Below are positions 10,238-48,852 of a stretch of 64,000 bases of DNA, piece after piece (position 1 is the first letter of the stretch; every line of letters begins with the position of its first letter). Source of the stretch: Burkholderia stagnalis (GTDB taxonomy: Bacteria; Pseudomonadota; Gammaproteobacteria; Burkholderiales; Burkholderiaceae). Where the stretch lies: the NCBI RefSeq assembly GCF_902830275.1, contig NZ_CADESW010000004.1, forward strand, positions 248,001 to 312,000. The letters run 5' to 3'. The notes beneath the pieces are model-generated. The model was not told the origin of the DNA. It saw only the letters and a list, made by a program, of their open reading frames with translations, and did no database searches. Both the position numbers and the translations under genes were made by a program.

Positions 10238-10553
10238 CTGATTCCGTTTGGTTGAAAGTTGAAATTTGAATGGTGAATGCTTCGTTCGACGAATCGCGAG
10301 CGACCGCCGGAATGTGCGTCACGCATGCTTCGGTTGACGAAACGCCGGATGCAGTATCGTCAGGCGCCGCGCATCGACGTATCTTTCTGAACGATCTCTC
10401 AAAGATGCGCGGCGCCACCGCCCGGCGCTTGCCTTCTCGCGCACCGTCTTCACATGGCCCGCTTTTAGATTGCGTTGAGATTCGTTGCCGCCGTTGCGTC
10501 CAGGAAAAAGAATGTGCCCACTTCCCCGGTACTTTTTTTCAACCCAAGGATGG
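10238..10553. promoter_or_regulatory. Divergent control region of gbpA and chitinase
   Basis: 316 bp without a convincing gene between two divergently transcribed chitin-degradation genes. It is visibly less GC-rich than the flanks in places and must hold both promoters. TTGACG occurs at about 10333, but I could not pair it with a convincing -10 box, so no promoter is called. An AAGGA ribosome-binding site ends it before the chitinase ATG. Confidence 0.55.
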
Positions 10554-16986: not shown

Positions 16987-18225
16987 TCACGCCTGCGGCA
17001 CACCCCGCCGCCACGTCCCGACGAACACGCCGGCCAGCACAACCCCGATCGCCGCGAACGGCGCGGCCGGATGCAGTTCGTAAAGCGCGCTGCCGGCAAG
17101 CGGCGCGATCACCATGCTGAGCCCCTGCGCGACCGACATCGCACCCGCGCACGCCCCCTGCTCGTGCGCCTCGACCCGCATGCTCGCCAGCGCCGCGACC
17201 GCCGGGAATGCCGCGCCCATTCCGCACGCCGCCACCAGGTAGCTCGCGCACATCCACAACGGCTGCGCGGGCCCGACCGCCAGCGTCGACACGAAGCCGA
17301 CACCGCCGACGAGCGCGCCCCAGCGCAGCCACTGCTGCGGCGCGACCCGGCGCAACCGCCCGACGAGCGATTGCATCGCGATCAGCCCGATGCCGGCGCT
17401 GCCGAGCGTATAGCCGACCACCGCCGACGCGTCGCTCACGCCAACCTGCAACCGGTCGATCACGTAAAAGCCGAGCGCGCTGTTCGCGATCATCACGACG
17501 CTGTACAGCGCAAAAGCGCTGCACCACGGCAGGCGCAGGCGCGGGTCGGTCGGCTTCAACCGCGGCGGCGCCTGCCGCGCGACGCGCGGTCCGTCGTCAC
17601 GCAAGCGGCGCAACCCCGGCAGGCCCGCGAGCGGCAGCAGCGCGAACACCGCGAGCGCGAGCGTCATGTCGTAACCCGCGAGCCAGCCCGCGAGCGGCGG
17701 CGCGATCACCATCCCGACCGCGCCCGCCGCGCCGAAGCGCGCCAGCGCCGCCGCGCGTCCGTCGACGGCCGTCCGGTCCGCGATCCACGCGGTTGCCGCG
17801 ACCGGCAAGCCCGCGTAGCAGCCGCCCATCGCCGCGCGCGTCGCGAGCAGCGCGGCGAAACTCGCCCACACCGGCGGCATGGCGCTCACGTCGCCGAGCA
17901 GCGCCCAGCCGACATAGCCGGCCAGCAGCAGAAAGCTGGCGACGAAGCCGACGATCGACGCGCGCATCGTCGGCAGCCGGCCGCGCATGTCGGCCGCGCG
18001 GCCCCAACGCGGCGCGGCGACGATCCACACGAGCCCGACGCTCGCGATGACGGCGCCGATATGCAGGGGTTCGAGATTCATCCGGCGCGCCAGCGGGCCG
18101 GCGATCGCGACGAATGCATAGGTGCCGGCCACCATCGCGAGATTCGCGAGCAGCAGCGGCAGATGGCGTGTGCCGGCAGCGGCCGGCGTTTGCAGGGGTT
18201 CGGCGGAAGTCGTCGACATGTCCAT
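16987..18225 (-). CDS. MFS exporter, probable siderophore efflux (EntS-like role)
   Basis: A 412-residue, 12-helix major facilitator protein with an MFS signature between helices 2 and 3 (PRWGRAADMRGRLPTMR). The central loop is short (about 205-225). It is the last gene of the long siderophore biosynthesis operon, 27 bp after the DAHP synthase gene. The simplest role is export of the finished catecholate, as EntS does for enterobactin. Substrate is inferred from context only. ATG codons at 18225 and 18219 are both possible starts. Confidence 0.82.
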   Translation of the reverse strand: MDMSTTSAEPLQTPAAAGTRHLPLLLANLAMVAGTYAFVAIAGPLARRMNLEPLHIGAVIASVGLVWIVAAPRWGRAADMRGRLPTMRASIVGFVASFLLLAGYVGWALLGDVSAMPPVWASFAALLATRAAMGGCYAGLPVAATAWIADRTAVDGRAAALARFGAAGAVGMVIAPPLAGWLAGYDMTLALAVFALLPLAGLPGLRRLRDDGPRVARQAPPRLKPTDPRLRLPWCSAFALYSVVMIANSALGFYVIDRLQVGVSDASAVVGYTLGSAGIGLIAMQSLVGRLRRVAPQQWLRWGALVGGVGFVSTLAVGPAQPLWMCASYLVAACGMGAAFPAVAALASMRVEAHEQGACAGAMSVAQGLSMVIAPLAGSALYELHPAAPFAAIGVVLAGVFVGTWRRGVPQA

Positions 18226-18252: not shown

Positions 18253-19359
18253 TCAGCCGACGCGGCCACTGTCGCGCGCGAGCCATCGACTGCGCGCCCG
18301 CAGCAGCGCGTCCTCGGTCGCGTCCCAGCCCAGGCACGGATCCGTGATCGAGCAGCCGTAGCGCAGCGGGCCGCCGAGCGGCTGCGCGCCCGCCTCGAGA
18401 AAGCTCTCGAGCATCACGCCGCGAATCGCGTCGCTGCCTGCGCACATCTGCCCGACGACGTCGTCCAGCACCGCAAGCTGACGCTCCGCCTGCTTGCCGC
18501 AGTTCGCGTGCGAGCAGTCGACCAGCAGGTTCGGCGGCAGGCGCTGCGCGCGCAGCGTGTCGACGGCGGCCGCGACCGACTCCGCGTCGTAGTTCGGCCC
18601 GTGCCGGCCGCCGCGCAGCACCAGGTGCGCATGCGGGTTGCCGTCGCTGTGCAGCAGCGCGGGGCCGCCGGCGCCGTCGATGCCGATGAAGGTGTGCGGC
18701 CGCATGCTGGCCAGCATCGCGTGCGCGGCGATATCGACCTGGCCGTCGGTGCCGTTCTTGAAGCCGACCGGCATCGCAAGCCCCGATGCCAGCTCGCGGT
18801 GCACCTGCGACTCGGTCGTCCGTGCGCCGATCGCCGCCCAGCTCACGAGGTCGCACAGGTAATGCGGGGTGACGACGTCGAGCGCCTCGATCGCGGCCGG
18901 CAGCCCGAGCGCATTGATGTCGGCCAGCAGCCGGCGCGCGGCGTGCAGCCCGTCCACCACGCGATGACTGCCGTCGAGCCCCGGATCGTTGATCAGCCCT
19001 TTCCAGCCGACCGTCGTCCGCGGCTTCTCGAAATAGACGCGCATCACCACGCAGAATGCGTCGCGCACCGTGTGCGCCAGCCGCGCGAGCCGGCGCGCGT
19101 AGTCGAGCGCGGCCTGCGGATCGTGGATCGAACACGGGCCGACGACCACGATGCGGCGCGCGTCACGACGCTCGAGGATCGCGCGCAGCGCGCGCCGGCC
19201 GGCCTCCACGGTCGCGCGCGCGGCGACGGAAGCCGGCACGTCGCGGCGCAGCGCATCCGGCGCCGGCAGCCGCATGCCGACGCGCCACCGTTCGTCGCGG
19301 GGCGGCTCGGCGAACGTGCCGGCCGCCCCCTGCCCGACGCAGGCGGAAATCTGTTTCAT
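18253..19359 (-). CDS. 3-deoxy-7-phosphoheptulonate (DAHP) synthase, class I
   Basis: A 368-residue AroF/G/H-type enzyme joining phosphoenolpyruvate and erythrose 4-phosphate, the first step to chorismate. Family motifs are VVVGPCSIHDP, MRVYFEKPRTTVGWKG, AIGARTTESQVHRE, GFKNGTDG and DCSHANCGK (metal and substrate residues). Sitting between the EntA gene and the exporter, it probably supplies extra chorismate for 2,3-dihydroxybenzoate under iron starvation, as dedicated DAHP synthases do in some catecholate and phenazine clusters. Whether it escapes aromatic amino-acid feedback cannot be read from the sequence by eye. Confidence 0.93.
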   Translation of the reverse strand: MKQISACVGQGAAGTFAEPPRDERWRVGMRLPAPDALRRDVPASVAARATVEAGRRALRAILERRDARRIVVVGPCSIHDPQAALDYARRLARLAHTVRDAFCVVMRVYFEKPRTTVGWKGLINDPGLDGSHRVVDGLHAARRLLADINALGLPAAIEALDVVTPHYLCDLVSWAAIGARTTESQVHRELASGLAMPVGFKNGTDGQVDIAAHAMLASMRPHTFIGIDGAGGPALLHSDGNPHAHLVLRGGRHGPNYDAESVAAAVDTLRAQRLPPNLLVDCSHANCGKQAERQLAVLDDVVGQMCAGSDAIRGVMLESFLEAGAQPLGGPLRYGCSITDPCLGWDATEDALLRARSRWLARDSGRVG

Positions 19360-19392: not shown

Positions 19393-20187
19393 TCAGGCGC
19401 CGAGCGTCGCGCCGCCGTCGACGCACAGGCTGTGCAGCGTGACGTGACGCGACGCGTCGGACAGCAGGAACAGCACCGTTTCGGCGACGTCGTCCGGCGC
19501 GGCGATGCGGCCGAGCGGAATGCCGGTGCGGTACGTGTCGAGCGACCCGCCGATCACCGCCGCCGGGCCCTCGGGCCCGGTCCACAGCTGACGCTGCATC
19601 GGCGTATCCGTCGAACCGGGCGCGACGATGTTGCAGCGAATCCCGTGCGGGGCGAGTTCGAGCCCGAGACAGCGGGTGAACTGGTGCGCGGCCGCCTTCG
19701 ACGCCGCATACGCGGCCATCTGCATGCGCGGCACGAGCGCCGCGTTCGAGCCGACCGTGACGATGCTGCCGGCGCGGCGCGCGACCATCCGCTGCGCGAC
19801 CGCACGCGACAGATGGAACACCCCATGCGTATTCACCGCGAAACAGTGCGCCCAGTCCGCGTCGCTCAGCGACGTTGCGGCGGCAAGCCGCAGCACGCCC
19901 GCGACGTTCGCGAGCATGCCGATCGGACCGAGTGCCGCCTCGACGCGCGCGACCGCGTCGTTCACGGCGGCCGCGTCCGCGACGTCGACCGTGAACGGAT
20001 GGATTCGCGCGCCGAACGCCGCGCTGTCGGCCGCGTTGCGCGAAAGCGCGGCGCCGTCGATGTCGAACGCGGCGACCTCGATCCCGCGCGCGGCCAGCAC
20101 GCGCACGACGGCCGCGCCGATACCCTGGGCCGCGCCGCTCACGACGGCGACCGTGCCCGGAAATGTCATCCCAACCTGTGCATTCAT
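19393..20187 (-). CDS. entA: 2,3-dihydro-2,3-dihydroxybenzoate dehydrogenase (EntA-like)
   Basis: A 264-residue short-chain dehydrogenase that oxidises 2,3-dihydro-DHB to 2,3-dihydroxybenzoate with NAD+. It has the cofactor motif [25 protein letters not shown], catalytic Ser in [18 protein letters not shown] (Tyr-xxx-Lys) and [11 protein letters not shown], all close to EntA/DhbA. The start at 20187 overlaps the NRPS stop by ATGA, so the two are translationally coupled. Function follows from the DHB neighbours. Confidence 0.92.
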
Positions 20188-23100
20188 CGATTCGAATTCC
20201 CTGAAATTGAGCCGCCGGAAACCTCGGCGGCAAGCCGTTCCGCGATGGCCGCGCCGATCGCCGCCATCGGCGCGGGATCGGACATCCCGTCGTGCGAGCA
20301 ATCGAGCGCGCGGCACGTCAGCGCGTCCGGCGCCAGATGCGCGCGCCAGCTGTCGGGCTGCGGCAGGCCGGGCCGCTTGCGCGCGGCGTCGAACAGCAGC
20401 AGCGCGCCGTCGTAGCGCGGCGTGTGCGCCGCGCGGAACAGGCGCATCTGCCGCAGCGTCGCGTCGGCGAACGCGTCGAGCCCCGCCGCGCCGAGCGCCG
20501 CGAACGGGCTGTTCGCGCGCAGCAGCCGCTGCCGCAACGCCTCGTCCGACAGCTCGCCGGTGTCGAAATCGCCGTTCACCGTGAGCAGGATGCGCAGCGC
20601 ATCGGCCAGCGCCGGCTGCGCTTGCGCCGACCATGCGGATGCCGGATAGCTGTCCATCAGCGCGAGCAGGCCGACCGCCTGCCCGTCGCGCGCGAGCGCG
20701 GCGGCCACCGCGTGCGCGAGCGCGCCGCCGAGCGACCAGCCGAGCAGGTGATACGGGCCGTCCGGCTGCAGCGCGCGCACGCGTCGCACGTAGGTATCGA
20801 CGAGCGCGTCGAAATCGGCCGCGTGGCGGGTGTCGTCGATCGATAGCTGGAGGCCGTCCACCGCGACGTCCGGCAGATGGGCGGCAAGCCGCAGATAACT
20901 CCACGCAAGGCCGTCGGCCGGATGGATGCAGATCAGCCGCGGCGCGCCGTCGCGCCCGGCCTGGATCGCGAGATGCGGCGCGAACGCGTCGTGCCCGGTG
21001 CGCGGCCCATACGCGAGCGGCGTTCGCAAAGCGGCGGCCAGCGCGTCGACGGTCGCATGCCGGAACAGCATCGACACGGGCACGTCGCGCCCCAGCTCGG
21101 TCGCGAGCCGCGCGCTCGCCTGGATCGCCTGCAGCGACTTCCCGCCGACGTCGAAGAAGTTGGACGCCGGCGTGAGCGCGACCTCGCCCAGCACGTCACG
21201 CCAGATGCGCATCACCTGCTGCTCGAGCGCGCCGGCCTGCGATGCGTCGTCCGGCACCGCGCGCCGCTGTGCGGCGAGCCGCACCAGCGCATTGCGGTCG
21301 GTCTTGCCGTTCGCGTTGCGCGGCAGGCGGTCGAGCACGTGCCATGCATCGGGAATCGCGGCGGGCGGCAACGCGTCGGCAAGCCACGCGCGCAGCGCGG
21401 CGACGTCGTCGACCCCGACGACGAACGCCGCGAGCGTCGCCGCGCCCGCCTCGCTGCGCAATGCGACGACAGCTGCCTCGCGCACGGCCGGGAATCGCAA
21501 CAGCCCATCCTCGATCTCGCGCGGATCGATGCGCACGCCGCTGATCTTCACCTGATGGTCGATCCGGCCGTCGAAACAAAGCCGGCCGTCGCGCAGCGTG
21601 GCGAGATCGCCGGTGCGATAGGCGCGCAGGCCGGTGCCGGGCAGCGTCACGAAGCGTTCGGACGTGAGCGCCGGATTACCCGGATAGCCGAGCGCGAGCG
21701 CGTCGCCGCCCAGCACCAGTTCGCCGGTGCGCCCTGCCGCGACCGGATACAGGCGCGCATCGACGATCCGTGCGTCGATGCCCGCGCGCGGCGTGCCGAT
21801 CGGCACCGGCTCGCCGTCCTGCCAGGCCGCGTCGGGCCCGCCGACGCATGCGGCCGTCGCGATGATCGTCGCTTCGGTCGGTCCGTAGGTGTTCAGCAGC
21901 GTCTGGTGCGGCAAGCGTGCGCGCCAGCGCCGGATCGGCTCGGGCAGCGCCGCCTCGCCACCGATGATGGTCAGGCGTACGTCGCGCAACTGCCGCGCAT
22001 GGCGGCCGTCGAGCGCATGCGCGAGCACGTGCCAGTACGCGGTCGGCAGATCGAGCACGGTGATGCCGCGCCGCTCGACCTCGGCCGTGAACGTGTCGAC
22101 CGAGTCGAGCATCGCGTCGTCGCGCAGCACGAGCGTCGCGCCGTGGCACAGCGTGACGAAGATCTCCTCGAGGCTCGCGTCGAAATGCAGCGGCGCGAAC
22201 TGCAGCACGCGGTCGTTCGGCCCGACGCGATAAAGGTCGCGCGTGCTCGCGACGAAATGCGCGAGCGCGCCGCGCCCGACCAGCACGCCGTTCGGCGTGC
22301 CGGTCGAGCCCGATGTGTAGAGCAGGTATGCGGGATGGTCGGCCGGCGGCGCCTCGTGCGGCATGCCTGCCGCCGGCGCACGATGTGCGTCGAGATCCAG
22401 CGTCGGCAAATCGCCCGCGCACGCGCGATGCGCGCCCCGCGTGATCACGAGCACGGGCGCCGCGTCGGCGAGCATCGCCGCGGTTCGCTGCGGCGGGCCG
22501 TCCGGGTCGAGCGGCACGAGCACCGCGCCGACGCGCAGCACCGCGAGCATCGCCGCGATCACGTCCGGCGCGCGCGGCGCGGCGATCGCCACGCGGCTGC
22601 CGCGTGTCGCGCCGCGCTGCACGAGCGCCGCCGCAAGCGCGTCGACGTCGTCGAGCAGCGACCGGTAGTCGATGCGCCGCTCGCCTGCCTCGATCGCCGT
22701 GTGCGTCGGCGCGTGCCGCGCGATGTGTGCGATACGCGCGAGCACATCGGGATGCGGCCCGGCCAGCGGCGCGCCGCGCAGGACCGACGGCGGCGGCAGA
22801 TCGCCGAGCAGCGGCGCGACGGGCGCCTGCGGCGCATGCGCGGCGAATGCGTCGAGCCAGCCCGCGAGCGAACACGCATGAGCGGCCAGCGTCGCCGCGT
22901 CGTATGCGTTCGGATTGGCTTCCAGCGTCACCTGCCACGTGCCGGCGCGCACCGCGACCGTCACGTTCAGGTCCTTCACCGGGCCGCCGCTGATCGCGCG
23001 CGTGTCGCTCGCGAGCCCGCGGAACGCGACCTGGCGCTCGAACGGCATCACGTTGACCGCCTGGTTGAACAGGAACGCGTTGCGCTCCAGCAACCCGAGG

Positions 23101-24095
23101 TCGCCGCGAATCCAGCCGTACCGGTAGTACAGGTGCGGCCGGATCGCGCGCAGCCGGCCGGCGGTGTCGGCCGCGAGCGCGCGCGGCGAGCAATCCGGAT
23201 CGACGTGCACGCGCAGCGGCACGATGTTCATCGCCATGCACGGCACGCCGAGCGCCGGCGTGCCGAGACGGTTCATCACCGGCAGGCCGAGCGTCAGGTC
23301 GCGCTGGCCGCCCTCCTTCGCGAGCCAGATGCCGATCGCGCACAGCAGCCACGCGTTCCAGTCGACGTCGAGCCGATCCGCGGCCGCGCGCAGCGCCTGC
23401 ACGCGATCGGCGTCGAGCGTCAGCGTCTCGCGCAGTGCGTTCGCGCCGATCTCCTGCTTCGGCGCCAGCACGAGCGGCGCCGGCACGTCGTGCAGATGCG
23501 CGCGCCAGAACGCGCGATCGGCGTCGAAGCCGCCGGTTGCGCGGTAATGCGCCTCCGCGCCGACGACGCGATCGACGCGCCAGTCCGGCAGCGCGGGCGG
23601 CGCCGCGCCCGCGACGCGCGCGCTGTAGCGGGCGGCCACCGCCTGCTGGAGCAGGCTGTAGCCGAAGCCGTCGAGCGCGATGTGATGCACCTGCAGATAC
23701 CACCAGTGCCGCGTCGGCGACAGCCGCAGCAGCGCGGTGCGGTACAGCGGATCGGCCGTGACGTCGCAGCAGGTCGACAGCGACTCGGCCATCCAGTTGC
23801 GCGCCGCCTGTTCGGGATCGGCCTGCGTGGAGAAATCGACGAGCGGCAGCTGCGTGCAGGGCGGCCGGCGATGCTGCCAAAGCGCATCGTCCTGCCAGGC
23901 GAAGCGCATGTGCAGCGTATCGGCATGGTCGAGCACGGCCTCGACGCTGTCGGCCAGCGCGGCGACGTCGAGCGCGCCGTCGAGCGCGATCGTCTCGGCG
24001 GTCAGGTAGCCCGGGTCGTCCGGGTCGACCTGCTGCGCGACCCAGATTCCGTATTGCGCGGACGTCGCGCGCATCGGTCGGTCTTCGAGTTGCAT
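20184..24095 (-). CDS. Single-module NRPS, C-A-T-TE (EntF-like), predicted lysine-activating
   Basis: About 1303 residues with EntF layout. The condensation domain has HHIALDG (about residue 135). The adenylation domain has [34 protein letters not shown] and NGKTDR. A thiolation domain has FFDVGGKSL (about 983), and a type I thioesterase has GWSLGG (about 1117) and a late SHDG His. Hand alignment to GrsA PheA gives specificity residues D-A-E-D-I-G-T-I-I-K. That differs from the serine code of EntF and resembles lysine codes. A single module would have to acylate both amines with DHB. ATG 24095 is preferred; a TTG at 24110 is possible, and neither has a strong ribosome-binding site. No MbtH gene is nearby. 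Confidence 0.93.
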
Positions 24096-24144
24096 GAATG
24101 GATGTGCCAAGGGAATGCGTTGATCGGGAAACGGGCGATGCGCG

Positions 24145-24465
24145 TCACGCGCGCTGCCACTCGACGACGAGCTGCCGGTTGCGCGACATCAGCGCGAGGT
24201 GCTCGTCCATCACGTACTGGATCTGCGCGAGCTTGTCCGCGGCATCGGCTTCGCAGCGCAGGCTCAGCAGGTCGTCGGTGCGCAGCATCCGGCACACGCC
24301 GTACGGAAAATCGACCGTTGCGCGATGCTCGTCGAATACGACCGGCACCTTGATCGCGTAGTGCTTGCAGAGCTTGAACAGCACGCGGTCGGCCTGCGGC
24401 AGCGTGAGCTCGGCGGTGCTGACGAACGGCGCCGGCCGCGCATCCGGCATCGTGCGCGCCGTCAT
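24145..24465 (-). CDS. DUF2218 family protein
   Basis: A 106-residue soluble protein with no signal or membrane helix. It reads as a DUF2218 member (LPQADRVLFKLCKHYAIKV, VDFPYGVCRM), a family I recall near siderophore and iron-uptake genes but without known activity. Its ATG at 24465 overlaps the isochorismatase stop by ATGA, and the NRPS starts about 50 bp later, so it is produced with the synthetase. An ORF start further upstream (24567) lies inside the isochorismatase gene and is less likely. It may bind a catechol intermediate or iron complex, but this is a guess. Confidence 0.72.
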   Translation of the reverse strand: MTARTMPDARPAPFVSTAELTLPQADRVLFKLCKHYAIKVPVVFDEHRATVDFPYGVCRMLRTDDLLSLRCEADAADKLAQIQYVMDEHLALMSRNRQLVVEWQRA

Positions 24466-25337
24466 GCCGGCACCTGCGCCGAACGCTGCAGCAGCCGGGC
24501 CCACGCGTCGAGCGTCGGCTGCTCGGCGAGCTGGACGAACGTGACGTCGTAGCCGGCGGCCCGCCACGTTTCCACCAGCGTCATCATGCGCACCGAATCG
24601 AGCCCGGCGTCGAGCAGGTTGTCGCCCGCGCGCAGGCTGGCAACCGGCACCCGCAGGCTGCGCGCGACCTGCGCGGCGATCTCCGCGAGCATCGGCTGCT
24701 CGGCGTCACCCTCCGCCCTGCCGACGAGCGCATCCGTCGTCTCGACCTTGCCGCAGCGGCCCGCCACGTAGTCGAGCGCCATCCGGTGCTCGCGTTCGGA
24801 GAAATCCGCGACCGCGTCGGCGACGAAGAACGGCCGGACGTCGCGCATGAACGCGTCGCACGCGGTCATCAGGCAGCCGATGTGCGCGTAGATCCCGCAG
24901 ATCACGAGCTGGTCGCGCCCCAGCGCGCGCAACTGGACCTCGAGGTCCGAGCGCTGGAACGCGCTGTAGCGCCACTTGTCGAGCACGGTGTCGCCCGGCG
25001 CCGGCGCGAGCGCGCCGCAGATCGCTTCGCGCGACGGCTGCGCGGTCAGCCCCGGCCCCCACATGTCGGTCAGCAATGCGCGCTGCGCGGGCGTCTGCGC
25101 GGCCGATTGCGCGGTGTAGTAGATCGGCATCCCGGCCGCGCGCGCGAAGTCGATCAGGCGCCGGACATTCGCCAGCAGCACCGGCACGGGCGCCGCGCCG
25201 CGATCGTAGAAATCGAGGAAGTAGTCCTGCATGTCGTGCACGAGCAGCGCCGCACGATGCGGCTCGAACTGCCACGTCACACGGTTCACCGGCAGCGCGG
25301 CCGGCATCGGGTAGGAAGGAATCTTCGGAATGGCCAT
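24462..25337 (-). CDS. entB: Isochorismatase with aryl carrier domain (EntB-like)
   Basis: A 291-residue bifunctional protein. The N-terminal isochorismatase domain (about 1-210) hydrolyses isochorismate to 2,3-dihydro-DHB; its triad is visible as Asp in [12 protein letters not shown], Lys in DKWRYSAF and Cys in [14 protein letters not shown]. The C-terminal aryl carrier domain (about 215-290) has the phosphopantetheine Ser in [12 protein letters not shown] and presents DHB to the NRPS. Length matches E. coli EntB (285). No phosphopantetheinyl transferase is in the cluster, so one elsewhere must activate it. Confidence 0.95.
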
Positions 25338-25394: not shown

Positions 25395-27008
25395 TCAATC
25401 GGTTTCGGTCAGCTGATCCGCAATGCGCTGGCGCAACGCGCGCTTGTCGATCTTGCCGACCGGCGTCTTCGGGAATGCATCGACGAATTCGATCCGGTCC
25501 GGCACCTTGTATGCGGCGACGCCCTGCTCGCGCACGAACCGCATCAGCTCCGCCGCGCCCGGCGGCGGCGCGCCGCCTATCACGTAAGCGCAGCTGCGCT
25601 CGCCGAGATACGGATCGGGCATCGGCACGAGCGCCGCATCGACCACGCCCGGGTGCGCGAGCAGCAGGTGCTCGATCTCCTCGGCCGGAATCTTCTCGCC
25701 GCCGCGATTGATCTGGTCCTTCGCCCGCCCCTCGACGACCAGATGGCCGGCGGCCGTGCGCCGCACGCGATCGCCGGTGCGATAGAAGCCGTCCACGGTG
25801 AACGCGCGAGCGTTGTGCGCGTCGGCGTCGTAATAGCCGCGGATCGTGTACGGGCCGCGCGTCAGCAGATGGCCGACCTCGCCCGGCTCGACGGGACGAT
25901 CGTCGTCGTCGACGATGAGGATTTCGTCGTCCGGCGAGATCGGCCGCCCCTGCGTGCCGGTCACGACCTCGCGCGGATCGTCGAGCCGCGTGTAGTTGAC
26001 GAGCCCTTCGGCCATCCCGAACACCTGCTGGAGCTGTGCGCCGAACCCGTCCGCCGCGCGTTCCGCGAGCGCCGGATCGAAGCGCGCGCCGCCGACCTGC
26101 ACGAGTTCCAGGCTCGCGAGCGCCTCCCGCCGCCGGGCCGCCGCCGCGAGCCAGACCGGCACCAGCGGCGGCACGAGCGCGACGACCGTCACGCGCTCGC
26201 GCTCGATCAGCGGGAACGCGGCGTCCGGGCTCGCGCCGTCGCACAGCACGACCGTGCCGCCCGCGTGCAGCACGCCGAGCGAGCCCGGCGAGCTGAGCGC
26301 GTAGTTGTGCGCGGCCGGCAGTGCGGCGAGATAGACGCTGCGCTCGCTCAGCCCGCAGATGCGCGCGCTTTCGCGCACGCTGTACAGGTAGTCGTCGTGC
26401 GTGCGCGGGATCAGCTTCGGCGTGCCGGTGCTGCCGCCCGACAACTGCAGGAATGCGACTTCGCTCGCGGCCGGTTCGGGCGGCAATGCGATATTGGCCG
26501 CTGCGTCGGCCAGCGCAAGGTTCGCATTGCCGGGCGCGGTGAACAGCACGTGGCGCAGCGTCGGCGCGTCGGCCTTCACGTCGCGCGCGAGCGCCCGGTA
26601 ATCGAACCCGTCGTGCCGCTCGGCCGCGACGTACGCGACCGCCTGCGCGTGCCGGCAGAAGTAGCCGATCTCGCGCCGGCGATGCGCGGGCAGCGCAAAC
26701 ACGGGCAGCGCGCCCAGCCGGAACAGCGCGAAGGTGACCGCGAAGAACGCGACGCAGTTCGGCAACTGCACCACCACGCGGTCGCCCGGCGCGATGCCGC
26801 GCGCGGTCAATGCGCGGGCGACACGCGCCGCTTCGTCGGCGAGCGTGCGATACGACCAGCGGATGTCGTCCTGCACGAGCGCGATGCGCTCGCCATGCCG
26901 TTCGACGCGCTCGTCGAGCCAGTGCGCGAACGACTGCCCTCGCCAATACCCGTTGCGGCGGTACGCGTCGGCGAACGCGTCCGGCCAGGGCGTGCCGTGC
27001 GCGCGCAT
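25395..27008 (-). CDS. entE: 2,3-dihydroxybenzoate-AMP ligase (EntE-like)
   Basis: A 537-residue stand-alone adenylation enzyme that activates 2,3-dihydroxybenzoate with ATP and loads it on the aryl carrier of the EntB homologue. Motifs are [20 protein letters not shown] (P-loop), [11 protein letters not shown] (aryl-acid pocket region typical of EntE/DhbE), [31 protein letters not shown] and [10 protein letters not shown] with the catalytic Lys. Its ATG shares one base with the stop of the EntC-like gene (27008), showing tight coupling. Length equals EntE (536). Confidence 0.95.
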
Positions 27009-28192
27009 CACGCGCGCTCCGTCAGCGCGTCCGCCGCGACGTCGCGGCTCACGCCGAGCGCGTCGAGCATCGTGCGGAACTTCGCGGCGGTTTCCGCGCG
27101 TTCGCCGTCGGGCGTCGATTCGCCGACCACGCCCGCGCCCGCATAGAGCCGCAGCGTGCGGTCGCGCGCTTCCGCGCAGCGGATCGTCACGACCCATTCG
27201 CCGTCGCCGTGCGTATCGACCCAGCCGAGCATCCCCGCGTAGAAGCCGCGGTCGAACGGCTCCGCGTCGCGAATGCACGCGCGGGCGGCTGCGCGCGGCG
27301 CGCCGCAGACGGCGGGCGTCGGATGCAGCGCGAGCGCCAGCGCCAGCGCGTCCGCATCGGTTTCGCCGCGCACTTCGGTCGACAGATGCCACATCGTCTC
27401 GGTGTGGATCAGCGACGGGCGCGCCGGCACGTCCAGGCGCCGGCACAGCGGCGCGAGGCTGTCGCGCACCGCCTCGACGACGACCCGATGCTCGTCGAGA
27501 TCCTTCACGGACGCGAGCAGCGCGTCCGCGCGGCGGCGATCCTCGACCGGGTCGGGGCTGCGCGGCGCCGAGCCCGCGAGCGGATTCGCACGGACGATCC
27601 CGCCGAAGCGGTTCACGAGCAGTTCCGGGCTCGCGCCGAGCAGCGTGCGCCCGGCGCCGAGATCGACGGAGAACGTGTAGCCGTGCGGATTGCGGGCCGC
27701 GAGGCGCGCGACGAGCGGCGCGACGTCGACCGGCCGCTCGCCGGTGAGCTCGAGCGTGCGCGCCAGCACCACCTTGTCGAGTTCGCCGGCGCGGATGCGC
27801 GCGACAGCCTGCGCGACCGCGTCCGCATAGCGGTCCGCCGACGGCACCGCGCGCGTCGCGTAGCGCGTCGACGCCGGATCGGGCGCGCGCGGCGAGCCGA
27901 GCGGCCCGGCGCGCAGCAGCGTGCGCGCAACGCGCAACGCGGCCGGCGCATCGACGTCGAACGGCACCGCGCCGACCACTGCCGCATCCGCGTAGCCGCT
28001 CGCGCGGGCATCGCGCAGCGCCTGCGCGACGCGTGCCGCGAGCGGCGCATCGCCGTGCGGCACCGCCTGCGCCGCATCGGCCGCGAGCAGCGCATGGTCC
28101 GGCGTCGCGAGGAACAGCGGCGTGTCGGGGCGATAGAGTTCCCAGACGTTTCGGGGTGCCAATAGTGTCGAAGGACGGGACACCATGTTCAT
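27008..28192 (-). CDS. entC: Isochorismate synthase (EntC-like)
   Basis: A 394-residue chorismate-binding enzyme converting chorismate to isochorismate, the entry to DHB. It shows [18 protein letters not shown] (a hallmark of EntC/DhbC), [11 protein letters not shown] and [11 protein letters not shown], with C-terminal RLYAGAGVV, as in EntC/MenF. ATG 28192 is chosen because GGAGG lies 8 nt upstream; a GTG at 28207 and an ATG at 28186 are alternatives. It follows the TonB receptor gene by 57 bp and probably shares its Fur-controlled transcript. Confidence 0.95.
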
Positions 28193-28249
28193 GAGCTTGA
28201 CCTCCACTTTCCAGATTGAATGAGCCGGCGCGCGGCGCCGGCCAGGCCG

Positions 28250-30385
28250 TCACATCTCGGCGGTGACGCTCACCGCGACGCGGCGGCCCTGATCGACCAG
28301 CCAGTTGCCGCTCAGGCCGTTCGCGCGGGTGCGGTCGTCCACCGGCACCATCCGGTTGGTCAGGTTCAGCACCGCGAAATTGACGGAGAAGCGCTTGTCG
28401 ATCCGGTAACGGCCGCCGAGGTCGAAGGTCGTCGTCGACGGCCGCTCGCGCACGCCCTGCGCGCCGTTGCGGAACGCCGCCCAGTATTCGTTGCCGATGT
28501 AATTGGCCGTCGCATACAGGTCGAGCTTCGGCGTCGGCGTCCAGTCGACCTGCACGTTGAATTTGTGCTTCGGCGTCTTGTCGAGCGGCTGGCCGTCGAG
28601 CGAGCTGCCGTTGAATGCCTTCTCGCCGTTGCCTTCGCGGCGCGACTGCGTGAGCGTGTACGCGCCCGACACCCTCACCGTGCGCGACACCCGCGTGCCC
28701 GCGCCGAGCTCGAGCCCGTACAGCTTGACCCGGTCGATGTTGTCGTACTTGTAGATGTTGCGGCCCGGCGAGCGCGGATCGGCGACGCCCGTGTCGTAGC
28801 TCGTGACCTTGTTCCTGAACAGGTTGTTGAACAGCGTCAGGCCCGCATACGTATCGCCCATGTCGTAGCGCACGCCGAGCTCCTCGGTCACGCTCGTTTC
28901 GGGCTTCAGGTCCGGGTTGCCGCACAGCGTGCCGGGCACCGCCCCCGCCGCGCCGCCCGACGTCATGCAGTAGCCGCCCGTGCTCTGGCGCAGCGACGGC
29001 GGCCGGAAGCCGGTCGACACGCCGCCGCGCACCGTCCATGCCTGGGTGAGCCGGTACACGCCGTAGACGCGCGGGCTGACGTGGCTGCCGTAGCGGTCGT
29101 CGTGGTCGAGCCGCAGGCCGGTGGTCAGCGTGAAGCGGTCGTTGAAGAAGTACTCGTTCTCGCCGAACAGCGCCCATGCATTGCGCGAGATGCGATCCGA
29201 ATTGATCGCGTGCCCCTTCGGCACGGCGTCCTGGCTGCCGACGCCCGACAGCCGCGACCAGATGTGCTGGCCGCCGACGGTCAGGATGTTGCGCTCGCCC
29301 CACCACGGCACCTCGGCCTTGCCTTCGAGGATCGTGTCGGTCAGCACGGGCTTGACCGGCGAGCGCCCCGCCGGCGTCCACTGGTCCTGCACGCCGCGCT
29401 CGCCGTACAGCGACAGCGTCGTGTTGGCGAAGCCCCAGCGGCCGTCGTGCGTGATGCCCCAGTAGTCGCGCACGTGACGCGTCTCGGTGATCGCGGAAGT
29501 CGCGGTGCGCGGCGTGAGCGGCGCCTCGCTCTTGCCCGGCGTGCTGAGATAGGTGAGCTGTTCGCGCCCGACGTTCACGCTGATGTCCTGGTCGCGGGTC
29601 GGCTTCGCGGCGAGCTTCACGTCGAAGCTGCCGATGCGCTGCCCGTTCGCGCCGCTCGCCCCGCTCGCCGGGTAGTAGATGGTGTCCTCGCCCCGGTGCA
29701 GCAGGCGCCCGGACGCCTGCAGCCCGAGCACGTCGGACTTCAGCGGGCCGCCGAGCCAGAAATCGACGCTCTGTGTGTCGCCCTGGTTCGACTCGAGCTG
29801 CCACACGCTGCTCGCGGTAAGCGTGCCGCCCCAGCGCTTCGGCACCTTGCGCGTGATCACGTTGACCACGCCGCCCATCGCATCGGCGCCGTACAGCGAC
29901 GACATCGGCCCGCGCACGACCTCGATCCGCTCGATCGCGGACAGCGGCGGCATCAGGTTCGACTGCACGCCTGCGGTGCCGCGGTTCATCGTTTCGCGGG
30001 TGTTCTGCCGACGGCCGTCGACGAGAAGCAGCGTGTATTCGCCCGGCATCCCGCGAATCGAGATGTCCTGGTCGTTCGGCGATCCGCCGACCACGCTCAC
30101 GCCCTCGACTTTGCCGACGATCTCGGCGACCGACGTGTACGGCTTCGCCGCAATCTCGTCGCGGGTGATCACCGAGATGCTGGCGGGCGCCTCCTTGATC
30201 GCCTGCTCGCGGCGGCTCGCCGTCACGACGATTTCCTTCATGGCCGCCGGCTCGCCGGACGCGGCCGGCGTGGCGGCATCGCCCGGCTTGTCAGGCGTCT
30301 GCGCCCACGCGCAGGACGCCCCCATCAGATACAGGCCGGCGACGACGGCCGGCTTCAACGCAAACTTCGCAACGTGACTCGACAT
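28250..30385 (-). CDS. TonB-dependent catecholate siderophore receptor (FepA/BfrA-like)
   Basis: A 711-residue outer-membrane receptor. A signal peptide ending CAWA precedes a TonB-box-like stretch (KEIVVTASR). The plug domain follows (about 60-180, with [20 protein letters not shown] and [20 protein letters not shown]), then a 22-strand barrel ending with the aromatic-poor SVTAEM. FepA/IroN-type features such as [16 protein letters not shown] are present. It is first in the transcript that continues into entC, and a Fur-box-like site lies about 26 bp upstream. It should import the ferric form of the siderophore made here. ATG 30385 was chosen for the signal peptide; an earlier in-frame start at 30409 would overlap the Fur site. 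Confidence 0.93.
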
Positions 30386-30410
30386 GATGACGCTTTCGCT
30401 GCTCCACAAT

Positions 30411-30429
30411 GTGATTGATTCTCATTTGC
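30411..30429 (-). promoter_or_regulatory. Fur-box-like site before the TonB receptor operon
   Basis: On the minus strand GCAAATGAGAATCAATCAC matches the 19-bp Fur consensus at about 13 positions and shares AAATGAGAAT with the palindromic site at 31586. It lies just upstream of the receptor start, where Fe-Fur would repress receptor and biosynthesis genes. Confidence 0.65.
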
Positions 30430-30499
30430 ATTATGGAACCTGTAATACGTCGAAATCTTTGCGTAAGCCTCGAACTCGTTTGAGCGCCGCTGCGATCCG

Positions 30500-31480
30500 T
30501 CAGCGGCTCGCGCAGCGCCGCGCGAGCGTCGGCGTCACGCCGAACCGGCGCTTGTACGCGGTCGCGAAATTCGCGGCGCTCGTGTAGCCGGCGAGCGCGG
30601 CGGCCTGCTTGACGCTCACCGCGTCGCGCTCGAGCGCGAGCCGCGCGCGCTGCAGGCGGTGCTCGCGGATGAAGTCGAACACCGTCGTGCCGTACGCGGC
30701 GCGGAACTGACGCTGCATCGCGTTCGCGCTCATGCCGACGTGGCGCGCGATGTCGTCGAGCGACAGCTCCTGCGCGGCGTCGCTCGCGAGGAACGCGCGC
30801 AGCTCGGCCATCCGGCGATAGTCGCGCGAGCCGAGCGCCGTGTCCGACGCGCCGGCCTCCTCCGCCTCGAGCGGCGCGAACGCCTCGGCGAGCAGTTCGA
30901 GCACGCGGCTTTCGAGGTAGATCGCCTGCAGCATCGGCTGGTAGGCCGGCGGCCGCACGATCTGCTCGGCGAGCGCGGCCGCGCGCGGCGTCGGCTGCCA
31001 GAAATGGATCGCTAGATGCGCGGACAGCATCGAATCGAGCCGCTCGGGCAACGCCGCGCGGCTCGCGGCCTGCAGGTGTGCGAGCCATTCGCCGGACATC
31101 GCGAGGCTGAGCCGCCGCGCATAGCCGCCCTTGCTCAGGCGGCGGCGGAACGTGTCAGGCTGCAGCGCGTTGAGCAGGAACGACTGCATCCGCACGTTCG
31201 GCCGGCCCGCGCCGGGATGGGCGGCGCCGTCGCGGCACGCGCGGCGCCCGTCGGTGGTCAGCAGCACGCGCCGGTCGCCGTAGGACACGTCGAGCGCGCC
31301 CTCCAGCAGCAGCACGAGGTGCAGGCCCGGCGTGCACTGGCCGGACATCACCGCGTCGAACTCGTCGGTCGCGTCGTCCGCATGCACGCGCAGCCCCGGC
31401 CGCACTTCGCGGACCCGCGCGACGTGCGCGTCGTGTCGATGGCAATCGGAATGGAAAGCGCCTGGCGCCCACGCAGTCAT
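30500..31480 (-). CDS. AraC/XylS-family transcriptional regulator
   Basis: A 326-residue regulator with a C-terminal double helix-turn-helix domain (about 225-322; SLDDIARHVGMSANAMQRQF and KQAAALAGYTSAANFATAYK). The N-terminal domain (about 1-215) resembles PchR-type siderophore sensors in length and layout. PchR and its relatives bind ferric siderophore and activate receptor and synthesis genes, so this protein is probably the positive regulator of the locus. It lies between the receptor and the importer operon, divergent from the latter across the palindromic Fur site. Ligand specificity is inference. Confidence 0.88.
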   Translation of the reverse strand: MTAWAPGAFHSDCHRHDAHVARVREVRPGLRVHADDATDEFDAVMSGQCTPGLHLVLLLEGALDVSYGDRRVLLTTDGRRACRDGAAHPGAGRPNVRMQSFLLNALQPDTFRRRLSKGGYARRLSLAMSGEWLAHLQAASRAALPERLDSMLSAHLAIHFWQPTPRAAALAEQIVRPPAYQPMLQAIYLESRVLELLAEAFAPLEAEEAGASDTALGSRDYRRMAELRAFLASDAAQELSLDDIARHVGMSANAMQRQFRAAYGTTVFDFIREHRLQRARLALERDAVSVKQAAALAGYTSAANFATAYKRRFGVTPTLARRCASR

Positions 31481-31585
31481 CTCGGATATCCCCCGCGCGC
31501 GGCCCTGTCCCGGTGCTCGCGCAAACTATTTCGTCGCTCGGACAAACGGACAGCGTCCGTTCCGGCCCGGCCTCTCGGTTACAAT

Positions 31586-31608
31586 TAAATGAGAATTGTT
31601 CTCATTTA
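31586..31608. promoter_or_regulatory. Perfectly palindromic Fur-box-like operator
   Basis: TAAATGAGAA (31586-31595), TTG, TTCTCATTTA (31599-31608): a perfect 10-bp inverted repeat with a 3-bp centre, AT-rich in GC-rich surroundings. It sits between the divergent AraC regulator and the ferri-siderophore importer operon, 18 bp before the GTG start of the latter. The AATGAGAAT core is typical of Fur sites. Confidence 0.8.
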
Positions 31609-31626
31609 TATCGTATCGGGAGTCAT

Positions 31627-32766
31627 GTGAGAAAGACAAGCGGAATGTGGGCCACGCTCGGCGCATGGCTGTGCGGATGGCTCGTGATGCATGCCGCGCA
31701 TGCGGACACCAGGACCGTCACCGACCTCGCCGGCCGGCAGGTCAAGATCCCCGCGCGCGTGGAGCGCGTGCTGCTCGGCGAAGGACGCCTGCTGCCGGCG
31801 CTCGCGATCGTCGACGGCGACGACCCGACGCGCCGGCTCGTCGGCATGATGGGCGACTTCGAGCAGCTCGATCCCGCGAGCTACGCGCAGTGGCTCGAAC
31901 GCTTTCCGCGGTTGAAGGACGTGCCGCGCATCGGCCGCTCGCAGGCCGGCAGCTTCAGCGACGAGCGCGCGCTCGCGCTGCGGCCGCAGGTCGCGATCTT
32001 CGGGCTCGGCGGCGGCCACGGGCCCGGCGAGCGCGATCGCGAGACGCTCGCGCGGCTGGAGGCGGCGGGCGTCGCGATCGTGTTCGTCGATTTCCGCCAC
32101 GACCCGCTCGCCAATACGACGCGCAGCGTCGCGCTGCTCGGCCAGGTGTTCGGCGCGCCGCAGCGCGCGGCCGACTTCAATGCGCTGTGGCAGCAGCAGT
32201 TCGACCTCGTGCGCACCCGCCTGAAAACCGCGCGGCCGGCCGCGCCGACCGTCTTTCTCGAAAGCCGCGTCGGCCTGTCCGACGACTGCTGCGAAACGAT
32301 GACGGGCATGCTCGGCCGCCTGCTCGACGCCGCCGGCGGCGAGAACATCGCGAAAGGCCGCGTGCCCGGCGAGCACGGCACGCTGAACCCGGAATACCTG
32401 CTGAGCCGCCAGCCCGACGTCTACATCGGCACCGCGATCGGCTCGGCCCTCACGCTGCAGAGCGCGCCGCGGCGCATCGCGCTCGGCGCCGGCGTGACGC
32501 GCGACGCCGCCGTGCAGTCGCTCGACCGCGCGCTGCAGCGCCCGACGATCGCCCCGCTGCGCGCGGTGCGCGAGCGCCGCGCGTACGCGATCTGGCATCA
32601 CTTCTACAACTCGCCGTTCAACGTCGTCGCGGTGCAGGCGCTGGCCAAATGGCTGCATCCGGACCTGTTCGCGGATCTCGACCCGCGCCGCACGTTCGAC
32701 ACGATGGTGCGCCGCTTCCAGCCGGTCGCGCTGAACGGCGAATACTGGATCCAGGAAGGGTCGTGA
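31627..32766 (+). CDS. Periplasmic iron-siderophore binding protein
   Basis: A 379-residue FepB/FhuD-class (cluster III) solute-binding protein. The GTG start at 31627 is preferred: GGGAG lies 5 nt upstream, and it gives a basic n-region (RKTSG) and a signal peptide ending HAAHA. An ATG at 31645 is possible. The start of the mature protein, TRTVTDLAGRQVKIPARVERVLLGEG, is the standard opening of this family, and two lobes follow. An unusual CC pair appears in LSDDCCETM. It begins the importer operon downstream of the palindromic Fur site and should deliver the ferric catecholate to the permease. Confidence 0.9.
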   Translation: MRKTSGMWATLGAWLCGWLVMHAAHADTRTVTDLAGRQVKIPARVERVLLGEGRLLPALAIVDGDDPTRRLVGMMGDFEQLDPASYAQWLERFPRLKDVPRIGRSQAGSFSDERALALRPQVAIFGLGGGHGPGERDRETLARLEAAGVAIVFVDFRHDPLANTTRSVALLGQVFGAPQRAADFNALWQQQFDLVRTRLKTARPAAPTVFLESRVGLSDDCCETMTGMLGRLLDAAGGENIAKGRVPGEHGTLNPEYLLSRQPDVYIGTAIGSALTLQSAPRRIALGAGVTRDAAVQSLDRALQRPTIAPLRAVRERRAYAIWHHFYNSPFNVVAVQALAKWLHPDLFADLDPRRTFDTMVRRFQPVALNGEYWIQEGS

Positions 32767-32767
32767 C

Positions 32768-33724
32768 ATGCCGGAGCCTTACTCCACCATGCGTCGCGGC
32801 CTGCTCTTCGCCGGACTCGCGGGCGCGCTTGCAACCCGCGTCGCGCCGGCCGGCGCCGCGTCCGATACGCCCGACACCGCCGCGTGGCCCTCGCCCGCCG
32901 ACACGCCGCCCGTGCGGATTCCCGGCAGTCACCAGTTCGACGTGACCGTCGCGGGCCGGGCCCGCCGCCTGTTCGTCGCGCTGCCGGCCGAACGCTCGGC
33001 CACCGCGCCGCATCCGGTGCTGGTCGTGCTCGACGGCAACGCGCTGTTCCCGCTCGCCGCGCCGCTCGCGCGCAACCGCGCGGCACGGCCCGACGCCGGG
33101 CACGCGCCCGCGCCGGTCGTCCTCGGCATCGGCTACCCGACCGATGCGCCGTACGACATGCAGGCGCGCGCCGACGACTACACGCTCGCGCCGCTGCCGA
33201 ACGGACAAGGCCTCGCGGCGGACCGCTTTCTCGATTTCGTCGAGCACGACGTGCAGCCGTGGCTCGCGCGCCAGTGGCCGATCGATGCGGGCCGGCAGAC
33301 GCTGTTCGGCCACTCGTACGGCGGGCTGCTGACGCTGTATGCGCTGCTGACGCGCCCGCACCTGTTCCGCCGCTACGTCGCGGCAAGCCCGTCGATCTGG
33401 TGGGGCGAACGCGCGCTGCTGCCGTATGCCGACCGCTTCGCCGCAACGGCGGCGCCGCTCGACCCGGCGCTGCGCCTGGTCGTGACCGCCGGCAGCCTCG
33501 AGGAAGGCGCGCCGCATCCGGACACCGAACGCATGCGCCGGCAACAGGCGCGCAAGCAGGTCAGCTCGGCCCGTGACTTCGTGCAGCGCGTGGGCGGCCG
33601 TGCGGGCCTCGACGCGACGTTCCGGCTGATCGACGGCGAGGACCACGGCGGCGTCGTGGTGCCGAGCGCGGCGCTCGCCGCGCGCATCGCGTGCGCGCCG
33701 GATCCTCGCGGAGGTGCCGCATGA
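32768..33724 (+). CDS. IroE/PfeE-like siderophore esterase (alpha/beta hydrolase)
   Basis: A 318-residue hydrolase with an N-terminal signal or anchor (MRRGLLFAGLAGALA), placing it in the periplasm as for IroE and PfeE. The nucleophile elbow is GHSYGG, the late catalytic His is in GEDHGG, and VVLDGNALFP and SPSIWWGE are typical of the IroE/Fes group. Such enzymes hydrolyse ferric triesters of enterobactin type to release iron. It starts 1 bp after the binding-protein stop and overlaps the permease by ATGA. The predicted lysine-based product would have amide bonds, so its true substrate is an open question. Confidence 0.85.
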   Translation: MPEPYSTMRRGLLFAGLAGALATRVAPAGAASDTPDTAAWPSPADTPPVRIPGSHQFDVTVAGRARRLFVALPAERSATAPHPVLVVLDGNALFPLAAPLARNRAARPDAGHAPAPVVLGIGYPTDAPYDMQARADDYTLAPLPNGQGLAADRFLDFVEHDVQPWLARQWPIDAGRQTLFGHSYGGLLTLYALLTRPHLFRRYVAASPSIWWGERALLPYADRFAATAAPLDPALRLVVTAGSLEEGAPHPDTERMRRQQARKQVSSARDFVQRVGGRAGLDATFRLIDGEDHGGVVVPSAALAARIACAPDPRGGAA

Positions 33725-34785
33725 GCACGACGGCTCCGGTTCCGCCCGCGTCGCTGAAGGTCCGCTACCGCGCGATCGCCGCGCGGCGCGTCGGCGCGCT
33801 CGCGATGCTGGCCGGCGTGCTCGTCGCGCTGCTGGTCGTCGACATCGCGACCGGCCCATCGTCGTTCCCGGTCGCGGATATCGTCACCGGGCTGCTGCGC
33901 CCGGACGCACTGCCGCTCGAACAGCGCGTGATCCTGTGGAACGTGCGCCTGCCGTATGCGCTGATGGCCATCCTCGTCGGCGCGTCGCTCGGGCTCGCCG
34001 GCGCGGAGATGCAGACGGTGCTGAACAACCCGCTCGCGAGCCCGTTCACGCTCGGCATCGCCGCGGCCGCGAGCGTCGGCGCGTCGCTCGTCGTGATCTC
34101 CGGCTGGCATCTCGTGCTGTGGAACGAGAACCTCGCGCTGTCGCTCGGCGCGTTCGGCTGCGCGATCGGCGCGACGCTGCTGATCGTCTGGCTCGCGTGG
34201 CGGCACGGCGCGACGACCGAAACCGTCGTGCTGTTCGGCATCGGCCTGATGTTCAGCTTCGAGGCGCTGCTGTGGCTGCTGCAATTCGTCGCCGACGCGA
34301 ACGCGCTGCAGCAGATCGTGTTCTGGAGCATGGGCAGCCTCGCGCGGGCGACCTGGAGCAAGATCGCGATCCTCGCATGCGTGCTCGGGTTCAGCGCGGT
34401 GTGGTCCGCGCCGGGCGTCGCGTCGATGACGGCGCTGCGCGCCGGCGAGGAACAGGCGCGCAGCATGGGCATCGCGGTCGAGCGGCTGCGGCTCGTCACG
34501 CTGATCCGCATCAGCCTGCTGTCGGCCACCGCGCTGTCGTTCGTCGGCACGATCGGCTTCGTCGGCCTCGTCGGGCCGCACGTCGCGCGGCTGCTCGTCG
34601 GCGACGACCATCGCCACTACCTGCCCGGCGCGGCGCTCGCCGGCGCGATCATGCTGTCCGCCGCATCGGTGCTCAGCAAGACGCTCGTCTCGGGCGTCGT
34701 GCTGCCGATCGGCATCATCACCGCGCTCGTCGGCGTGCCGCTCTTCATGACGCTGATCAGCCGCCGCAGGAGGCACGATGGATAA
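33721..34785 (+). CDS. FecCD-family iron-siderophore ABC permease
   Basis: A 354-residue membrane protein with about ten helices. It has the FecCD signatures RLPYALMAILVGASLGLAGA near residue 80 and GFVGLVGPHVARLLVGDDHR, the latter contacting the ATPase. Only one permease gene is present, whereas enterobactin systems use two (FepD and FepG), so it probably acts as a homodimer. ATG 33721 has GGAGG 9 nt upstream and overlaps the esterase stop by 4 bp. It overlaps the ATPase gene by 8 bp. Confidence 0.94.
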   Translation: MSTTAPVPPASLKVRYRAIAARRVGALAMLAGVLVALLVVDIATGPSSFPVADIVTGLLRPDALPLEQRVILWNVRLPYALMAILVGASLGLAGAEMQTVLNNPLASPFTLGIAAAASVGASLVVISGWHLVLWNENLALSLGAFGCAIGATLLIVWLAWRHGATTETVVLFGIGLMFSFEALLWLLQFVADANALQQIVFWSMGSLARATWSKIAILACVLGFSAVWSAPGVASMTALRAGEEQARSMGIAVERLRLVTLIRISLLSATALSFVGTIGFVGLVGPHVARLLVGDDHRHYLPGAALAGAIMLSAASVLSKTLVSGVVLPIGIITALVGVPLFMTLISRRRRHDG

Positions 34786-35590
34786 ACCGCCACGGGCACT
34801 CCGCATCGACGGCCTCGACGTCGCTTATGGCGCGCGCACGATCCTCGCGAAGTTGTCGCTGCAGGCGATCCCGCCCGGCAGCGCGGTGGCGCTGCTCGGC
34901 CCGAACGGCGTCGGCAAGTCGACGCTGCTGCGCGCGCTCGCCCGGCTCGTCGCCGCGCGCGGCGCGCTCACGCTCGACGGGCACGACCTGCTGCGCGGCG
35001 CGCGCCGCGAGCATATGCGGCGGGTCGGATATCTGCCGCAGACGCTGCCGCAGCCAACCTCGCTGCTCGTCTACGAAGCCGTGCGCGGCGCGCTGCGCGC
35101 GACCTGCGGCGGCCTGTCCGCCGACGCGCAGGACGCTCGCCTCGAACGGGTGTTCGGCCAGTTGAACCTGCATCCGCTCGCCACCACGTCGCTCGACCGG
35201 CTGTCGGGCGGGCAGCGCCAGATGGTCGGGCTCGCACAGGTGCTGGTGCGCGAAACGCCGCTGCTGCTGCTGGACGAGCCGACGAGCGCGCTCGACCTGC
35301 GCTGGCAGTTGCTCGCGCTGGAGGCGATGCGCGACGCGGTCGCGCGGCGCGGCGCGATTGCGCTCGTCGCGCTGCACGACCTGAATCTCGCCGCGCGCTT
35401 CTGCGACCGCCTCGTGCTGCTCGGCCGCGACGGCGTGCTGGCCGACGGCGGCGCTGCCGACGTGCTGACGCCCGCCAACCTGCGGCGCGCCTATCGCGTG
35501 GATGCGCGGGTCGAGCGCACGGCGTCGGGCGACTACGTGACGCTCGCCGAACGGGCGGCCTCGGTGGAGGAACTTGCGTCGACAGGTTGA
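34778..35590 (+). CDS. Iron-siderophore ABC transporter ATPase
   Basis: A 270-residue FepC/FhuC-type ATPase. Walker A is GPNGVGKST (about 42-50), the signature LSGGQRQMV, Walker B LLLLDEPTSALD and the switch His in ALHDLNLAARF. It is the last gene of the importer operon; the right-hand tRNA-Leu promoter follows within 60 bp, and I see no separate terminator between them. Confidence 0.95.
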   Translation: MDKPPRALRIDGLDVAYGARTILAKLSLQAIPPGSAVALLGPNGVGKSTLLRALARLVAARGALTLDGHDLLRGARREHMRRVGYLPQTLPQPTSLLVYEAVRGALRATCGGLSADAQDARLERVFGQLNLHPLATTSLDRLSGGQRQMVGLAQVLVRETPLLLLDEPTSALDLRWQLLALEAMRDAVARRGAIALVALHDLNLAARFCDRLVLLGRDGVLADGGAADVLTPANLRRAYRVDARVERTASGDYVTLAERAASVEELASTG

Positions 35591-48722: not shown

Positions 48723-48852
48723 GATCGTTCCCTCTGCAAGCAAATTCCGGCAACGATACTCCTGATCGCATGCGGCGTTAATACCGCGCATCCCTCGCGT
48801 GCCCCGGTTTGACGATCCATGACAAAACCTGCCGCGCGCCGCATGACGCGCG

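Follow-up and report, generated by a model that had tools for sequence, protein, structure and literature searches.

A lysine-type catecholate synthetase in a predicted cepaciachelin gene cluster of Burkholderia stagnalis

Within a 64,000-nucleotide stretch of Burkholderia stagnalis DNA, called the window in the following (G000:C4:248001-312000 of an 8.03-Mb draft genome in 149 contigs), we have analysed a gene for a nonribosomal peptide synthetase (NRPS) with a lysine-type adenylation domain, the synthetase of a predicted cepaciachelin cluster. The gene (20184..24095, minus strand) runs from an ATG at 24095 to a stop at 20184, with an in-frame TTG at 24110, and encodes a protein of 1303 amino acids (P0001); the plus-strand frame from 20184 is interrupted by in-frame stops. 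Pfam places Condensation at residues 10-422, AMP-binding at 458-804, AMP-binding_C at 860-931, PP-binding at 959-1023 and Thioesterase at 1053-1210, i. e. a condensation (C), an adenylation (A), a thiolation (T) and a thioesterase (TE) domain in this order. The motifs of the enzyme are intact: VHHIALDG in C, GGKS in T and GWSLGG in TE, with the serine at residue 1121. An earlier model reading of the bare letters, the original prediction, had described an EntF-like C-A-T-TE protein of about 1303 residues without stating the strand; the Pfam domain order and the length of the open reading frame confirm this description.

The synthetase gene is part of a series of minus-strand genes that, from the receptor onwards, encode a TonB receptor, EntC, EntE, EntB, DUF2218, NRPS, EntA, DAHP (3-deoxy-D-arabino-heptulosonate 7-phosphate) synthase and an MFS (major facilitator superfamily) protein. 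The TonB-dependent receptor is catecholate-type and CpcG-like (28250..30409; PF00593, PF07715), and its top NCBIfam models are IreA/CirA-like and under cut-off. Behind it lie an EntC/DhbC-like isochorismate synthase (27008..28207; PF00425, 260 bits; TIGR00543, 297.5 bits, cut-off 224.75), an EntE-like 2,3-dihydroxybenzoate-AMP ligase (25395..27008, ATG at 27008; TIGR02275, 753 bits, cut-off 723.55, in a scan that began at 27005) and an EntB-like isochorismatase with an aryl carrier domain (24462..25337), which was assigned from its Pfam domains PF00857 and PF00550, no EntB-specific NCBIfam model having matched. Between entB and the synthetase gene sits a gene for a DUF2218 protein of 106 amino acids (24145..24465, ATG at 24465; PF09981, 87 bits, in a scan of the longer frame 24145-24567). 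Beyond the synthetase follow an EntA-like 2,3-dihydro-2,3-dihydroxybenzoate dehydrogenase (19393..20187; TIGR04316, 346 bits, cut-off 300), the DAHP synthase, an entry enzyme of the shikimate pathway (18253..19359; TIGR00034, 445 bits, cut-off 173), and the CpcH-like MFS transporter, a likely exporter (16987..18225; PF07690, 120 bits). The DUF2218 gene overlaps entB by 4 bases, and the start of the entA homologue overlaps the synthetase stop by 4 bases; since the starts of the EntE, DUF2218 and EntA genes each overlap the preceding stop, the arrangement suggests one coupled operon. The EntA/B/C/E homologues that had been predicted beside the synthetase are indeed adjacent and on the same strand (by Pfam and NCBIfam, EntB by Pfam alone). 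An AraC-family regulator precedes the receptor gene (30500..31480, minus strand; PF12833), and the plus strand then carries genes for a periplasmic binding protein (31513..32766; PF01497), an EstA-like esterase (32768..33724; PF00756), a FecCD-family permease (33691..34785; PF01032, 261 bits) and the ATPase of an ATP-binding cassette (ABC) system (34778..35590; PF00005, 103 bits).

The code of the A domain was read from an alignment of 82 rows that comprises the window protein, 80 related loci (L005-L084, the best 80 of 172 confirmed candidates) and E. coli EntF (L085); one frame was taken per locus, and the loci L001-L004 of the window's own genome were excluded. The ten alignment columns that correspond to the GrsA code positions give DAEDIGTIIK (D639, A640, E643, D682, I710, G712, T736, I744, I745 and K931 of P0001), exactly the residues of the original prediction. 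In the same columns EntF has DVWHFSLVDK, its known serine code, and this control supports the choice of the columns. The pattern D[AT]ED[ILV]G[TS][IV][IV]K fits all 80 relatives; the code is identical to that of the window protein in 11 of them. These are L021 and ten Burkholderia loci; the only other Burkholderia locus, B. singularis (L013), differs in one position. Conservation in every relative, together with the deviating EntF control, argues against a chance pattern. Both comparisons that had been proposed, with MxcG of M. xanthus (L046) and with the Azotobacter synthetase, yielded lysine-type codes, i. e. DAEDIGTVVK and DAEDIGTVIK, respectively. MxcG reportedly loads lysine and attaches 2,3-dihydroxybenzoate (DHB) to each of the two lysine amines (PMC8400222). 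Moreover, the NCBIfam model for MxcG scores 985 bits on the window protein and that for EntF 533 bits, both under their own curated cut-offs. A literature search for the code strings found none in print. The code, the similarity to the MxcG model and the placement in the tree described below support an A domain that would take lysine, not serine, as originally proposed.

The tree was built from the C-A-T part of 50 rows with a quick method without bootstrap; the partial L029 was not used, and the 37 relatives that lack a TE motif are represented by 6, the reductase end of all 37 being taken from the MxcG literature and not from a domain scan. The window protein falls into a group of 27 rows (support 100) from Burkholderia, Chromobacterium, Methylobacillus (Methylophilaceae), Rhodoferax, Curvibacter, Iodobacter and others, and all 27 have the GWSLGG motif in the TE, a domain that was not used for the tree. 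The 14 rows with GWSSGG, Azotobacter vinelandii among them, fall outside this group, six MxcG-type rows share one branch (support 98), and EntF stands alone on a long branch. Thus placed, the synthetase groups with known producer lineages at the genus or family level. The closest named relatives found are those of Burkholderia sp. SRS-46 (89%), B. ubonensis (86%) and B. cepacia LK29 (80%), and a close relative (E <= 1e-280) was present in 20 of the 65 genomes searched in the genus, the window's own included. A plasmid DNA search gave a single record that covers 2% of the query. Matches to EntA/B/C/E, the receptor, the AraC regulator, the MFS protein and DUF2218 were obtained at all 11 Burkholderia loci, and to the DAHP synthase at 10 of them, with none found in B. 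puraquae (L010). For the Chromobacterium loci L018, L040, L057 and L072, EntA, EntB and EntC homologues were not found within the fetched flanks of up to 10 kb, some of them shorter, and their DHB genes may lie elsewhere.

A cluster of this kind is already known, and the genome studied here provides one more copy. Esmaeel et al. 2016 reported it next to the ornibactin cluster of B. ambifaria AMMD, with DHB and Lys as the predicted substrates of its two A domains, and saw cepaciachelin by mass spectrometry, with DHB and putrescine as fragments (PMC4906002); the lysine finding is therefore not new, and the original statement that Burkholderia is known to make cepaciachelin holds for B. ambifaria AMMD. 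A more recent mBio paper from 2026 confirmed cepaciachelin from homologous clusters of Methylophilus and Chromobacterium violaceum and detected azotochelin alongside it in Methylophilus (PMC13251462). The gene features of a cepaciachelin cluster were found at the locus: a C-A-T-TE synthetase with lysine code, adjacent genes for DHB synthesis and activation, a TonB receptor, an MFS protein and ABC uptake genes. Butt and Thomas 2017 list the cluster in eight species or groups of the B. cepacia complex, B. ubonensis among them, plus B. cepacia LK29, and name the genes for its receptor, its exporter, the ABC system, the esterase and the DAHP synthase (PMC5681537). We are highly confident that the window cluster is orthologous to this published cepaciachelin cluster of Burkholderia and that its product is cepaciachelin. 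Our own observations are the gene content, the order of the domains, the code and the phylogeny; the product is known from the papers on relatives. Some points speak against this conclusion: the lysine assignment is drawn from aligned code columns, the product of this strain is predicted from its genes, and the proven producers B. ambifaria AMMD, C. violaceum CV017 and Methylophilus strain 5 are represented in our comparison by their genus or family alone. The assignment gives this Burkholderia a catecholate siderophore and corrects any automatic label as enterobactin synthetase.

The order C-A-T-TE and a similar length would also fit an enterobactin synthetase that activates serine, and the EntF model does align end to end with the protein; its 533 bits are, however, far under the cut-off of 2400, and the code, the 31% identity and the isolated position of EntF in the tree rule this identity out for practical purposes. 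A different question is whether the TE might free bis-DHB-lysine as the acid without adding putrescine, which would make azotochelin the main product. The TE motif alone cannot separate water from an amine as the attacking group, and in Methylophilus azotochelin does occur next to cepaciachelin (PMC13251462). Yet the group of 27 rows that contains the window protein holds the cepaciachelin-making lineages, the fragments of the B. ambifaria product are DHB and putrescine (PMC4906002), and the A. vinelandii enzyme lies outside this group with GWSSGG instead of GWSLGG in its TE. We therefore regard azotochelin as an improbable main product. The original prediction of a siderophore of the azotochelin/cepaciachelin class is thus supported by code, MxcG model and tree, with cepaciachelin as the likelier main product.

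How putrescine is joined to bis-DHB-lysine is the issue to which our comparison adds a modest new element. From 43 genomes, we chose 11 for their low counts of C-domain matches, the remaining 32 having more of them among the matches listed. In 10 of these 11 relatives, the synthetase contains the only C domain above cut-off found genome-wide; 8 of the 10 belong to the GWSLGG group, and two of the 10 (L016 and L032) have one C-domain fragment each below cut-off. The genome of the remaining relative, Uliginosibacterium, encodes in addition a single C domain that stands alone (447 amino acids). At least three of the 11 genomes are metagenome-assembled according to their titles (L015, L021, L038) and possibly incomplete. 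Given the one C domain in 10 of 11 low-count relatives, both amines of lysine are probably acylated by the same C domain. In a protochelin/aminochelin system like that of Azotobacter, a stand-alone VibH-like C domain that acylates putrescine would be expected. A stand-alone C domain was sought in the window's genome and none was found, all 23 C-domain matches lying in frames of at least 1334 amino acids. A putrescine ligase of the IucA/IucC type was rejected, since neither the window's genome nor 11 of 12 relatives gave an IucA/IucC match, the exception being A. vinelandii with two. The single C domain and the lack of IucA/IucC make the TE, by elimination, the likeliest site of putrescine capture; a search for a link between TE and putrescine found no statement on putrescine attachment in the parts of the literature covered. 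It is tempting to speculate, and we would put this slightly short of an even chance, that the single C domain performs both acylations, that the type-I TE captures free putrescine, and that the presence of a stand-alone C domain decides between putrescine, giving cepaciachelin, and DHB-putrescine, giving protochelin. C-domain proteins without other NRPS domains are encoded near the synthetase in A. vinelandii (L026:14741-17209) and Uliginosibacterium aquaticum (L027:3363-4703), and these possibly serve aminochelin or protochelin formation.

Several observations argue against such a TE-based scheme. The search for amide-forming enzymes covered the IucA/IucC family, the ten single-C relatives are known from genomes alone with their products unproven, and the window's genome has enough C-domain matches to make a partner in trans conceivable. 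Moreover, aminochelin, i. e. DHB-putrescine, was also detected in Methylophilus (PMC13251462), so that some enzyme there joins DHB and putrescine, which a TE-only scheme leaves unexplained. The same product might be reached if another C domain adds putrescine in trans, for instance the one at the C-terminus of the ornibactin-like synthetase that this contig also encodes (G000:C4:132498-133757, in a frame of 1664 amino acids about 135 kb away), and ornibactin itself bears putrescine (PMC5681537). This appears rather unlikely in view of the 10 of 11 low-count relatives that lack a second C domain above cut-off, even if their products are unproven. The single-C relatives offer a way to test which enzyme joins putrescine and bis-DHB-lysine.

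In the pathway that we propose, the EntC, EntB and EntA homologues would convert chorismate to DHB, with the DAHP synthase of the cluster supplying the shikimate pathway, and the EntE homologue would put DHB on the carrier domain of EntB. The A domain of the synthetase would load L-lysine onto the T domain, and the single C domain may then transfer DHB to one lysine amine and subsequently to the other. Release of bis-DHB-lysine by the TE would occur mainly by aminolysis with putrescine to give cepaciachelin, and to a minor part with water to give azotochelin. Export is probably achieved by the MFS protein, and uptake probably by the TonB receptor together with the binding protein, the permease and the ATPase. 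An enterobactin-esterase-like gene (32768-33724, plus strand) is present although the expected product is ester-free; for the receptor, it has been proposed that it may also import ferric enterobactin (PMC5681537).

Iron addition abolishes cepaciachelin production in B. ambifaria (PMC4906002). Upstream of the receptor gene of the window lies a possible overlapping pair of Fur-box-like sites (30411..30435, minus strand), two 13/19 matches to the Fur-box consensus, 6 bases apart. When the 90-base gap upstream of the receptor gene was shuffled 1000 times, 24 of the shuffles reached the score of 13, and 13/19 matches also occur at window positions 48749 and 52900; since shuffled and other sites score equally, the evidence for a Fur box is weak. 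On its other side, the cluster is adjoined by a gene for a GbpA-like lytic polysaccharide monooxygenase (minus strand), divergent from that of a large chitinase of glycoside hydrolase family 18 with PKD domains (plus strand; together 8777-13454), and near this pair by a CHASE2 histidine kinase gene (13668-15983, minus strand).

Among the known systems, EntF shares the C-A-T-TE architecture with the B. stagnalis enzyme and differs in its serine code and the low identity given above. In E. coli the MbtH gene ybdZ adjoins entF, whereas the two MbtH matches in the genome studied here (G000:C4:155399-155545 and G000:C18:164901-165038) are both outside the window, so that no MbtH partner was found beside the synthetase. 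MxcG of Myxococcus (44% identity) has in common with it the C-A-T part, the lysine-type code and the bis-DHB acylation of lysine; its release is reductive (PMC8400222) and no TE motif is present in L046, whereas the B. stagnalis protein ends in a Thioesterase domain. The azotochelin/protochelin synthetase of A. vinelandii (L026) is C-A-T-TE as well, with the code DAEDIGTVIK and dhb genes nearby. It differs by its 46% identity, its TE motif, its position outside the 27-row group and the C-domain protein close to it, the like of which the search of the window's genome did not find. The comparison with the published Burkholderia cepaciachelin cluster, made by gene content and description and not by direct sequence comparison to B. 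ambifaria AMMD, gave no distinguishing difference, DUF2218 being a family not named in the parts of the published descriptions used. DAHP synthase, present here, belongs to the published clusters of most species, not of B. ambifaria, and an ornibactin-like NRPS pair, so named from its size and the literature, lies on the same contig here, as the ornibactin cluster lies beside that of B. ambifaria. Both clusters have the Dhb genes, a stand-alone DHB-AMP ligase and a synthetase of the type Cstarter-A-Te with predicted Lys (PMC4906002, PMC5681537), and the TonB receptor, the MFS protein, ABC uptake and an EstA-like esterase are common to the two.

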